Source of the DNA: Arenibacter aquaticus
GTDB lineage: Bacteria; Bacteroidota; Bacteroidia; Flavobacteriales; Flavobacteriaceae
Length of the DNA stretch: 64,000 nucleotides
Direction: 5' to 3'
Assembly: GCF_003957295.1 (NCBI RefSeq)
Contig: NZ_RQPJ01000021.1
Location: 108,210-172,209 of the forward strand
A model generated the notes under the pieces. The model searched no databases, had not been told where the DNA came from, and worked only from the letters and a program-made list of their open reading frames with translations. Below are positions 41,327-44,239 of this stretch, piece by piece. Each line of letters starts with the position of its first letter. Position 1 is the first letter of the stretch. The position numbers were made by a program, and so were the translations under genes.

Positions 41327-41445
41327 GGTTATAATTAAGACCTAAATAGCCTATACGTAAAAAATTACTTTTTAAAAATTTTGTTTTGCTTCATTGAGCT
41401 TTTCACAGAAACAGCTATGGGAGTATAGCTTTAAAAAGTAATTGT

Positions 41446-42027
41446 ATGGAACTAGTAATAGACGATTCAGTATTAGTAAAAAACTACATGAACGGGGACG
41501 AAAGAGCCTTGGAGATTTTAATTCACCGTCACAATCAGCGCCTAAGCAGTTTTATTTATTCCAAAGTCCAAGATCGGGAAATAACTGAGGATATTTTTCA
41601 GGATACCTTTATTAAGGTAATTAAAACTTTAAAAAAGGGTAATTACAATGAAGAAGGTAAATTCCTCCCCTGGGTAATGCGCATATCCCATAATCTCATA
41701 ATAGATTATTTTAGAAAGAGTAATAGAATGCCGCGTTTTGAAGGCAACAGCGATTTTAATATTTTCTCTATAATGAGTGATGATAAGCTAAACGCCGAAA
41801 GACAACTTATAAAGGAGCAGATAGATCAAGACCTTTGTGTTTTGATCAAGGAGCTGCCCAAAGACCAAATGGATGTTTTGGAAATGCGTATCTATAAGAA
41901 TATGAGTTTTAAGGAAATATCTGAAAATACCGGTGTTAGTATCAATACTGCCTTGGGAAGAATGAGATATGCCCTGATAAACCTTCGTAAGATTATAGAA
42001 AAGCACAATATTATTTTAACGAATTAA
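41446..42027 (+). CDS. ECF RNA polymerase sigma factor, copy 1
   Basis: The 193-residue sigma-70 family protein has region 2 at about 22-95 (RHNQRLSSFIYSKV, then EDIFQDTFIKVIKTLKKGNY and PWVMRISHNLIIDYFRK) and region 4 at about 125-185 (ELPKDQMDVLEMRIYKNMSFKEIS, then SINTALGRMRYALINLRKII, a helix-turn-helix that reads the -35 element). It lacks regions 1 and 3, as expected for the extracytoplasmic function type. No anti-sigma gene with a membrane helix is adjacent; instead a 47-codon gene follows. It aligns without gaps to the copy at 42760-43341, and roughly four residues in five are identical. Confidence 0.92.
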   Translation: MELVIDDSVLVKNYMNGDERALEILIHRHNQRLSSFIYSKVQDREITEDIFQDTFIKVIKTLKKGNYNEEGKFLPWVMRISHNLIIDYFRKSNRMPRFEGNSDFNIFSIMSDDKLNAERQLIKEQIDQDLCVLIKELPKDQMDVLEMRIYKNMSFKEISENTGVSINTALGRMRYALINLRKIIEKHNIILTN

Positions 42028-42071
42028 TGTTCCGTATAACCGTCTTTAGTTAATTTCTTCCTAATACTTGC

Positions 42072-42087
42072 GTTATTTGTACATAAC
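42072..42087. promoter_or_regulatory. Inverted repeat before small gene, copy 1
   Basis: GTTAT-N6-ATAAC lies 10 bases before the ATG of the first 47-codon gene. The surrounding GCGTTAT and ACATAACAA are shared with the same position before the second small gene. It could be an operator or a short RNA hairpin. Confidence 0.5.
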
Positions 42088-42097
42088 AAAAAATATT

Positions 42098-42241
42098 ATG
42101 GACAAATACGACGTTACTACAAAGAACAAATGTACCCTAATGGCAACAAGACAGTCTAAAATAGATTTTTTGCTAAGCTACTCCAAATCATTGTACCTCG
42201 TAAAATGCAATGGTAAGCTACAGGAGCAGTGTCTTAATTAA
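42098..42241 (+). CDS. 47-residue protein after ECF sigma factor, copy 1
   Basis: This small gene starts 70 bases after the stop codon of sigma copy 1 and ends at TAA 42239-42241. It is too short for standard gene calling. The protein is hydrophilic, with a central amphipathic segment (KIDFLLSYSKSLYLVK, about 21-36) and three cysteines (12, 37, 45). It shares length, an NKCxL motif at 10-14, an IxFLxxYSxSL motif at 22-32 and a terminal LN with the protein at 43414-43557, although flanking residues differ greatly, which suggests selection on the protein. A terminator follows 12 bases later. The function is unknown; control of the sigma factor is a hypothesis only. Confidence 0.75.
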   Translation: MDKYDVTTKNKCTLMATRQSKIDFLLSYSKSLYLVKCNGKLQEQCLN

Positions 42242-42253
42242 CGTTTTATCTTG

Positions 42254-42277
42254 GCCGTCTTCTTTGGACGGCTTTTT
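42254..42277 (+). terminator. Intrinsic terminator after the first sigma/small protein cassette
   Basis: GCCGTC (42254-42259) pairs with GACGGC (42267-42272) and is followed directly by TTTTT. It ends the transcript that includes the 47-codon gene. Confidence 0.8.
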
Positions 42278-42759
42278 AAATGATATTAGGGTTTTCCTCA
42301 AGGGAAGGCGTCTGCAAGACATAATGTACGGTTAGATGTTGTATACCTATTAAGAAGTGGTTCGGCCCACTATGTAACATTTTATTTTAAACTTTAATAT
42401 AATGTTCTGCATTGGTTTGTAAAGAACTACTTTATAATAAAACTATATTCCTTATATATAGGTAGGAAATTACTTTATAGCCAATTTTTGGAACACTTCT
42501 TCTTTTTTAACCTCTTTTATAACATCTACATCCAACTAAATTTTAGACCATTTATTATATCAAAAATAATAAAATTGGCATTTGACATCATTTAATGGGG
42601 GTTTTACAACATAGTTTTTCCACAACTTCATCATTTATATACTTTTATCCTGTTGTTAATTGATACTGTAGGTTTAAAATCTGCATCAAGTTTTAGCTAA
42701 CACAAAGAAAGTCCAATCAGCAAGGTGGGGCACTAGTTTAACCAAAAAATATATTTTGT
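42278..42759. other. AT-rich intergenic region before the second sigma gene
   Basis: These 482 bases contain no frame that I would call a gene. The sequence is notably AT-rich with several T-runs. A TACTTTTA box near 42650 resembles a weak -7 element. The region probably carries the promoter and a long leader of the second cassette; its length is unusual for this compact genome. Confidence 0.5.
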
Positions 42760-43341
42760 ATGGAACTGCAAATAGATGACTCAGTATTAGTAAAGGATTA
42801 CATTAACGGAAATGAAAAGGCGTTAGAGGTTTTAATCAATAGGCATAACCAACGTATAAGTAGTTTTATTTATTCCAAGGTTTTGGACCGTGATGTATCT
42901 GAGGATATTTTTCAGGATACCTTTATTAAGGTAATAAAAACCTTAAAAAAAGGAAACTATAGTGAGGAAGGTAAGTTTTTACCTTGGGTTATGCGGATTG
43001 CCCATAACCTGGTCATAGACCACTTCAGAAGAAACAAAAGAATGCCCATGTTTGAAGGGAATGATGATTTTAACATCTTTTCTGTTATTGGGGATGATAA
43101 ATTAAATGTAGAAAAACAATTGATCAAAGATCAAATAGATTCTGATTTGTCCGTACTGGTAGAAGAACTTCCAGAAGATCAAAAAGAGGTTCTTGTGATG
43201 CGTATTTACAGGGATATGAGCTTCAAAGAGATTTCTGAGAATACGGGAGTGAGTATTAATACGGCTCTTGGAAGAATGCGTTATGCGTTAATTAACCTGA
43301 GAAAAGTCATAGAAAAAAACAATATCGTTTTAACGAATTAA
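42760..43341 (+). CDS. ECF RNA polymerase sigma factor, copy 2
   Basis: This second 193-residue ECF sigma factor has the same region 2 (RHNQRISSFIYSKV, EDIFQDTFIKVIKTLKKGNY, PWVMRIAHNLVIDHFRR) and region 4 (ELPEDQKEVLVMRIYRDMSFKEIS, SINTALGRMRYALINLRKVI) as copy 1. Most substitutions are conservative and lie outside the DNA-contacting helices; the last 40 residues are almost unchanged. The two therefore probably recognise the same or very similar promoters, while differing in how they are controlled. Like copy 1 it is followed by an inverted repeat and a 47-codon gene. Confidence 0.92.
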   Translation: MELQIDDSVLVKDYINGNEKALEVLINRHNQRISSFIYSKVLDRDVSEDIFQDTFIKVIKTLKKGNYSEEGKFLPWVMRIAHNLVIDHFRRNKRMPMFEGNDDFNIFSVIGDDKLNVEKQLIKDQIDSDLSVLVEELPEDQKEVLVMRIYRDMSFKEISENTGVSINTALGRMRYALINLRKVIEKNNIVLTN

Positions 43342-43383
43342 TAGGTCATAGGTCGAACAGGGCAATATTTCGGATTTGGTAGC

Positions 43384-43399
43384 GTTATCTTAACATAAC
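43384..43399. promoter_or_regulatory. Inverted repeat before small gene, copy 2
   Basis: GTTAT-N6-ATAAC is repeated here, 14 bases before the second 47-codon gene, with the same flanks (GCGTTAT and ACATAACAA) as at 42072-42087. Confidence 0.5.
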
Positions 43400-43413
43400 A
43401 ATACTATAATCCT

Positions 43414-43557
43414 ATGGAAAAAATTTACTCTGAGAATCCAAACAAGTGTAAACTTGCGAAAGCAAGTCCTGAAACTATCAAGTTTCTAATAGGCTATTCC
43501 AATTCCTTGCAAATAATTGAACACAATAATGTTCAGTTCGAAAATAATTTGAACTAG
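43414..43557 (+). CDS. 47-residue protein after ECF sigma factor, copy 2
   Basis: The gene starts 72 bases after the stop of sigma copy 2 and ends at TAG 43555-43557. Its 47 residues align over the full length with the first small protein (NKCKL at 10-14, IKFLIGYSNSL at 22-32, terminal NLN), with about one third of residues identical and at most one gap. Only one cysteine (12) is kept. The small protein has therefore diverged much more than its sigma factor. It ends 3 bases before a strong terminator shared with nth. Confidence 0.75.
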   Translation: MEKIYSENPNKCKLAKASPETIKFLIGYSNSLQIIEHNNVQFENNLN

Positions 43558-43560
43558 AAC

Positions 43561-43592
43561 AAAAAATCCCAACTTAGGAGTTGGGATTTTTT
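43561..43592. terminator. Bidirectional terminator shared by the second cassette and nth
   Basis: AAAAAATCCCAAC and GTTGGGATTTTTT form a 13-base stem around TTAGGA. The stop codon of nth (43574-43576, read leftward) lies in the loop, so the hairpin overlaps the 3' end of that gene. Confidence 0.9.
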
Positions 43593-44239
43593 GTTTTATA
43601 ATAGCTGTTCAAGACAGTTTTTCTTCCAATTTTTTTGGTGATAATGTCCTTTTCCAAATCCCAGCCCCTTGCTGGTGAATATTCCCTTCCGTACCAAATA
43701 ATCTGTAGGTGAAGGTCGTTCCACAGTTCTTTAGGAAACAATCTTTTAGCATCTTTTTCAGTTTGAACCACATTTTTACCATTTGAAAAACCCCAACGGT
43801 ACATGAGTCTATGTATATGGGTGTCTACCGGAAAGGCAGGAATCCCAAAGGCTTGTGAGACCACCACGCTGGCGGTTTTATGTCCAACTGCCGGTAATTG
43901 TTCCAAAAGTTCCAATTCCTGTGGTACTTGCCCGTCGTATTTTTCAATGAGGATTTTAGAAAGGCCATAGATACCTTTAGATTTCATAGGGGATAGCCCA
44001 ACAGGCTTAATAATTTCCCGGATTTCTTCCGGGGTCATTTTCACCATGTCAAAGGGGTTGTCTGCCTTGGCAAATAATAGAGGTGTAATCTTATTGACCC
44101 GCACATCGGTACTTTGGGCCGACAGCAGTACGGCAATCAGTAGGGTATAGGGGTCTTTGTGGTCTAGAGGAACTGGGATTGTGGGGTACAGTTTTTGTAA
44201 AGTTTCAATGGTAAAGGTAACTTTTTCGGCTTTCGTCAT
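43574..44239 (-). CDS. nth: Endonuclease III without the Fe-S cluster cysteines
   Basis: The 221-residue DNA glycosylase/AP lyase has the helix-hairpin-helix LEQLPAVGHKTA, with the catalytic lysine at K121 and the catalytic aspartate at D139 in PVDTHIHR. The usual C-terminal Cys-X6-Cys-X2-Cys-X5-Cys of the [4Fe-4S] cluster is absent; the segment reads IIWYGREYSPARGWDLEKDII instead. This loss is recurrent in Bacteroidota relatives, as I recall. It should repair oxidised pyrimidines in base excision repair. It is convergent with the sigma cassette and divergent from bcp. Confidence 0.9.
   Translation of the reverse strand: MTKAEKVTFTIETLQKLYPTIPVPLDHKDPYTLLIAVLLSAQSTDVRVNKITPLLFAKADNPFDMVKMTPEEIREIIKPVGLSPMKSKGIYGLSKILIEKYDGQVPQELELLEQLPAVGHKTASVVVSQAFGIPAFPVDTHIHRLMYRWGFSNGKNVVQTEKDAKRLFPKELWNDLHLQIIWYGREYSPARGWDLEKDIITKKIGRKTVLNSYYKTKNPNS

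Follow-up and report, generated by a model that had tools for sequence, protein, structure and literature searches.

Two ECF sigma factor genes lie in a row in the window, the 64,000-nucleotide stretch of Arenibacter aquaticus DNA analysed here, and each of them is followed by a gene of 47 codons and an intrinsic terminator (Table 1). This layout had been described in an earlier note made from the sequence alone, and it was borne out by our analysis: the two sigma factors, said to be about four fifths identical, share 153 of 193 residues (79%) in a gap-free alignment, the small genes begin 70 nt (small1) and 72 nt (small2) past the sigma stop codon, and a terminator closes each cassette, the second one being a perfect hairpin with a T run when judged by eye. 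The small proteins are equal in length and, as had been noticed, far more diverged than the sigmas, with 17 of 47 residues (36%) identical. It also proved correct that a membrane anti-sigma gene is absent beside the sigmas of the window.

Table 1. Features of the two sigma factor cassettes (positions in the window)
Feature	Position	Strand	Basis or remark
Leader of sigma1	41363..41443	+	complementary arms 41363-41376 and 41430-41443; possible RNA helix over translation start
ECF sigma factor copy 1 (sigma1), 193 aa	41446..42027	+	Pfam Sigma70_r2 and r4; NCBIfam sigma70-ECF above cut-off
Degenerate ECF-type promoter element TAATT-N15-CGTTAT	42051..42076	+	3 of 5 letters of CAATA; profile score 7.4
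Small gene 1 (small1), 47 aa, putative reduced anti-sigma	42098..42241	+	
Intrinsic terminator after small1	42253..42278	+	stem 42253-42273, then T run
ECF sigma factor copy 2 (sigma2), 193 aa	42760..43341	+	Pfam, NCBIfam, identity to sigma1
ECF-type promoter element CAATA-N15-CGTTAT before small2	43363..43388	+	exact match
Small gene 2 (small2), 47 aa, putative reduced anti-sigma	43414..43557	+	
Intrinsic terminator after small2	43555..43598	+	inverted repeat, 20-nt arms 43555-43574/43579-43598

Both sigma factors were assigned to the ECF group by matches to Pfam regions 2 and 4 above cut-off, with no region 3, and they reach 84.5 and 83.8 bits against TIGR02937 (cut-off 42.9). Within the genome of the window they are the only close relatives of each other, the 26 other ECF-like matches being at most 31% identical; the nearest named loci over the second copy come from Arenibacter sp. 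F26102 (97% identical) and A. echinorum (96%). The sequence of region 4 appears by eye nearly the same in the two copies. No significant model was found in Pfam or NCBIfam with the 47-residue proteins.

The conservation of the small gene was examined in 80 sigma loci fetched from named genomes. These were the best 80 of 581, with start codons picked by script, and are thus a sample of near relatives. An ORF of 45-50 codons follows the sigma gene in all 80 of them, which is the outcome the earlier note had proposed to look for in flavobacterial genomes. The 82 small proteins (the two of the window included) have a common T[IV]xFLLxYSK-like motif, and they end in Leu-Asn in 80 cases, in SN in one and in IN in another, so that the final Asn is invariant. 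Such a fixed C-terminus could serve docking or degradation. The dN/dS check suggested at the same time gave values of 0.00-0.27 in 16 of 18 close pairs picked by hand, the other two being undefined for want of a synonymous change. The small genes are genuine; they are conserved and under selection as coding sequences.

A profile built from 59 of the small proteins matched in 99 of 196 genomes of the order and in 21 of 198 genomes taken across the phylum, and all 21 belong to the same order. All 30 listed genomes of the window's family have a match, and the misses listed start with other families. The distance to the sigma gene is 53-262 nt, downstream and on the same strand, for 99 of the 104 matches; the remaining five are located elsewhere, in genomes that also encode the sigma. 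At an E-value of 1e-30 the sigma itself was found in 154 of the 196 genomes of the order and in 97 of the 198 across the phylum, and it is present in every one of the 99 small-gene genomes of the order (P 4.6e-16, a value that ignores kinship). One previous claim, that the small genes are too short for gene callers, did not hold: homologues are annotated in places as 'hypothetical protein', so they are not invisible to such programs. In open-licence full-text papers no description of the gene was found (subscription papers lay outside this search). It is a real and overlooked gene.

Two features had escaped the earlier reading, namely the anti-sigma descent discussed below and an element in the spacer between the sigma and the small gene, which is therefore not empty. 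ECF sigma factors typically read CGT boxes at -10. CGTT was present in all 82 spacers. When the CGTT of each spacer was selected for the quality of the box 15 nt ahead of it, CAATA-N15-CGTT was exact in 73; the upstream box keeps four of five letters in five spacers and three of five in four, including the first copy of the window. The exact element was expected by chance in a mean of 0.03 spacers (200 mononucleotide shuffles), and in the 82 spacers it was absent at all other spacings of 10-21 nt and from the minus strand. Its distance to the ATG of the small gene varies from 27 to 44 nt. A fixed distance between the boxes together with a variable distance to the ATG is promoter-like. The second copy of the window has the exact element, and the first has a degenerate one that scores 7.4 against a spacer median of 30.1.

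A motif with a CGT box, SM6, has been mapped at start sites of Flavobacterium psychrophilum and ascribed to ECF factors; as described there, SM6 promoters stand before genes of type IX secretion and before Rfp11, a putative RNA (PMC9723704). This precedent, and the short transcript that would result here, would fit a transcript acting mainly as a regulatory RNA with an incidental ORF, a reading we regard as hardly credible in view of dN/dS values well below 1 and the Asn that ends all 82 proteins. It is also very improbable that the element is read by another sigma, the small gene thereby linking two regulons. The genome of the window has 26 further ECF-like matches to choose from, and the F. 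psychrophilum motif is described as possibly serving several ECFs (PMC9723704), but the small gene that accompanies this sigma keeps the element throughout the family.

Autoregulation of the sigma through the same element was considered and rejected, as the 500 nt before the 82 sigma genes are without it; scores there are mostly negative, and the best is 11.2 (L053, overlapping the coding start) against the spacer median given above. A wide regulon was likewise rejected, since the strict motif gave 106 matches in 60 genomes and the reversed pattern 105. With no enrichment elsewhere, no wider regulon ties the element to this sigma. The strict motif has six sites in the genome of the window against two for the control pattern: one is the spacer described here, three lie inside longer ORFs (L092, L095 and L096), and two (L091 and L093) coincide in part with the 3' end of the ORF before them, the next ATG following after 129 and 139 nt. 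The L091 site (C5:1010739-1010764) is an exact CAATAW-N14-CGTTAT before an ORF resembling a lytic transglycosylase, and may be due to chance given the two control sites. As for type IX secretion genes in this genome, no element was found before gldN, and the PorU model had no match.

To what family the small protein belongs was suggested by the genes that follow the same sigma in other lineages. In nine loci chosen from distant genomes of the phylum, the next gene encodes 181-227 residues, an N-terminal domain being followed by a hydrophobic stretch; its start lies 4-35 nt ahead of the last base of the sigma stop codon, and in all nine it overlaps or abuts the sigma gene. Three of three such proteins tested match the NCBIfam anti-sigma model NF052375 with E-values of 3e-11 to 7e-9, below its cut-off. 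Other families have a protein of 76-79 residues without hydrophobic stretch, whose gene overlaps the sigma gene. In some families of the order the protein is 88-90 residues long and comprises the whole domain, the C-terminal motif and the Leu-Asn end; further families have forms of 56-70 residues with an eroded middle, and the window's family and some others of the order have 44-50 residues. Of seven shorter relatives compared with anti-sigma models, two (L187 and L209) gave weak matches (E 0.003-0.13) and the others none; Pfam gave no anti-sigma match for any relative tested. Such soluble relatives were also listed by a profile search in Algoriphagus and Hymenobacter; in UniRef some of 76-77 residues bear the name anti-sigma factor, most are hypothetical, and a few have unrelated names (transporter, vWA).

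Profile comparison with hhalign joined the soluble to the membrane set (95.8%, E 7.8e-9) and the short to the soluble set (78.9%, E 1.6e-5), and did not match the short set directly to the membrane set. The short-form profile on its own reaches into two 88-residue proteins, matching their C-terminal third (G014, E 1.0e-4; G026, E 2.3e-5). The rows of the homology series in A3-A5 were picked by hand. L155, L201 and L202, whose start could not be resolved, were left out, as were L171, L174 and L195, where the start was doubtful or another ORF had been taken by mistake, the membrane-type proteins L221-L223, L225 and L227-L234, and the loci with no relative beside the sigma (L147, L153, L154, L156, L197-L200, L204, L208 and L210-L213); alignment A6 holds 25 of 27 in-frame loci. 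There is a chain of similarity from the short through the soluble to the membrane anti-sigma-like proteins, in which neighbours are linked and the ends are not. Judging from the alignment, loss seems to have affected the middle, and the N-terminus and the C-terminal third to have been retained. Reduction of an anti-sigma factor probably led to the small gene as its end point.

The model of an 88-residue relative (L245) has four helices in the order of class I anti-sigmas (mean pLDDT 72.2, pTM 0.44; about 67-87 over the four-helix part, a fold not confirmed by structure search), and its fourth helix aligns with the helix of the small protein. On this model and the hhalign match, relatives of 76-90 residues combine a four-helix layout with homology to membrane anti-sigmas. 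Proteins of 45-50 residues have no room for a three-helix bundle, and the 47-residue forms show, in a low-confidence model, one helix and a hairpin in place of the class I bundle with its helix 4; like class I members, they are encoded beside an ECF sigma (99 of 104 within 262 nt downstream). When sigma and small protein of the window were modelled as a fusion, the sigma part took the sigma fold and the small part formed a helix (237-249) and a hairpin; with a mean pLDDT of 62.8 and a pTM of 0.50, docking is not claimed. The matches listed in fold searches cover the sigma part; the anti-sigma part was barely probed by them, and the absence of a match there carries no weight. In class I complexes, helix 4 is described as binding the RNA polymerase-binding face of the sigma2 domain (12 of the top 14 couplings) and helix 1 as binding the sigma4 domain, the usual inhibition being dual with the sigma4 contact included (PMC7406223). 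The helix-1 contact is gone from the 47-residue proteins.

Here, we propose that the 47-residue protein is a minimal cytosolic anti-sigma, descended from the anti-sigma partner of this sigma and acting in a feedback loop driven by the sigma itself, which we hold to be moderately likely. That the small proteins are candidate direct regulators of the sigma had been suggested before, and it is the best reading of the sequences. The membrane part, the periplasmic part and the three-helix core of the ancestral anti-sigma would have been lost, and a short N-terminus, the segment of helix 4 and the Leu-Asn tail kept. Most small genes appear to have an ECF-type promoter of their own, most likely read by the adjacent sigma, and if so an active sigma makes its own small inhibitor. 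The accumulating protein would cover region 2 of the sigma and keep it off RNA polymerase, and output would fall: a negative feedback without a membrane sensor. We infer all three links of this loop, namely that the sigma reads the element, that the peptide binds the sigma and that it inhibits. The more specific form of the proposal, a one-helix anti-sigma reached by stepwise loss down to a helix binding the sigma2 domain and the Leu-Asn tail, and self-limiting through a promoter of its own sigma, is put forward tentatively, its chances being somewhat short of even.

On the other hand, the descendant of an anti-sigma might no longer inhibit, and instead stabilise the sigma, adapt it to another protein or help its loading onto polymerase. 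The three-helix core and the sigma4-contacting helix are missing from the small protein, as this would allow. Some genomes also keep the sigma without a relative beside it. In nine such genomes the soluble-form profile found one elsewhere (E 3.7e-7 to 1.5e-16), and in five further ones (G197, G202, G211, G228 and G232) it had no match, from which it follows that the sigma can live without the small protein. Yet the helix retained is the one described as blocking polymerase in class I anti-sigmas (PMC7406223), and an apparently sigma-dependent promoter is in keeping with a feedback inhibitor, so we consider such a change of role rather unlikely. Before the nine unlinked soluble-form genes, the exact CAATA-N15-CGTT was found at L289, L293 and L294 and four of five letters at L291; L287 and L290 have, by eye, CAATA with another -10 box, and L286, L288 and L292 have no element at the 15-nt spacing. 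Among the five short or eroded genes of the order that are not adjacent to the sigma, L161 has the exact element, L159 four of five letters and L157, by eye, a variant at 16 nt, and none was found at L158 and L160. Exact elements before three of the nine and one of the five speak for the feedback reading, whereas five of the nine and two of the five are to be counted against it.

Two sigma genes in a row occur in 26 of 81 loci (the window and the 80 others), and the other 55 have a single copy. In all 26 tandem loci the downstream copy has the CAATA box and the upstream copy a -35 box that has drifted from it, usually [TCGA]A[CT]TA at 15 nt or, by eye, 16 nt; at L026 the 110 nt next to copy 1 yielded no small ORF in a script search. 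Placed on the sigma tree, the label of copy 1 requires two changes, against a mean of 21.4 when shuffled, and that of copy 2 requires five. The duplication of the sigma looks old, but the deep forks are weak and a single origin is not established. As the 55 single-copy loci have the same kind of small gene, the small-gene family predates the duplication. These observations bear on the version of the earlier note, that the sigma paralogues keep one promoter specificity and each small protein is tuned to its own signal or partner. The identities of 36% for the small proteins against 79% for the sigmas, and the likeness of region 4 seen by eye, agree with it. We nevertheless judge this version improbable: the small-gene family is older than the duplication, strong divergence would be expected of a protein of the anti-sigma series stripped of its core, and drift of the -35 box ahead of the upstream small gene is seen throughout the tandem loci. 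No signal-binding feature was found in the small proteins.

An additional layer of control may lie in the leader of the first sigma gene. Its complementary arms, ATTACTTTTT (41363-41376) and AAAAAGTAAT (41430-41443), could pair, and the second ends 2 nt before the ATG of sigma1; in the leaders of the window and of L011-L090 the arms are often preceded by GCCTATA. A helix of at least 9 pairs that ends at most 12 nt from the ATG was found in 54 of 81 first-sigma leaders and in 6% of mononucleotide shuffles. In 47 leaders, chosen largely for having arms, 91% of the cells pair and there are 14 two-sided changes (shuffled mean 3.3), located in 5 of 11 pairs; with the structure slid by one column 15 two-sided cells are still obtained, but only 65% pair. 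RNAalifold gave no consensus structure for the leader, and Rfam had nothing at gathering score in six loci, the window giving only weak matches below it. Upstream of translation starts, Bacteroidetes are reported to prefer A-rich sequence (PMC7366714); the second arm would conceal it. Conserved pairing may mask the start codon of the sigma and add translational control. Alternatively, proteins could bind at the arms, or a promoter could overlap the first one. A segment of 23 nt at 42457-42479, about 280 nt before sigma2, is 83% identical to 41352-41374 and is perhaps the leftover of a duplicated leader without its partner arm.

Several known systems resemble the one proposed here. By sequence, the nearest solved relatives of the window-type sigma are AlgU and sigmaE, whose class I partners MucA and RseA are also encoded beside their ECF sigma; among five PDB hits listed for the soluble relatives of 76-90 residues, two are weak ones to MucA and to an RseA N-terminal domain (E 1.0 and 1.2, not significant). 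Unlike RseA and MucA, the 47-residue proteins have neither membrane part nor three-helix core, and their genes have a promoter of their own in the spacer. According to a survey of anti-sigmas, class I members stand beside 6% of Bacteroidetes ECFs against 32% overall, and domains of less than 50 residues were dropped there (PMC7406223), a rule that would miss a family like the present one.

EcfO-Reo of Bacteroides/Phocaeicola likewise has an anti-sigma gene after an ECF sigma in Bacteroidota, but Reo is described as spanning the envelope to the cell surface (PMC9308784, PMC13114119), whereas the partner here has 47 residues; on these published descriptions, it was set aside as a homologue. CfrX, proposed as a soluble anti-sigma of SigX in Pseudomonas aeruginosa, is by its description also small, soluble and ECF-linked, but is placed in a mechanosensing complex (PMC8999054). 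CnrY, the class II anti-sigma of CnrH, is described as short, with its last helix on the sigma2 domain; it has two helices, one of them on the sigma4 domain (PMC7406223), whereas the 47-residue protein has one helix and a predicted hairpin. If our reading is true, this one-helix form would be among the shortest anti-sigmas and block a single sigma domain. It makes testable whether contact with the sigma2 domain is alone enough to hold an ECF sigma, and the series from membrane through soluble to one-helix forms suggests how an anti-sigma may be dismantled while still tied to its sigma.
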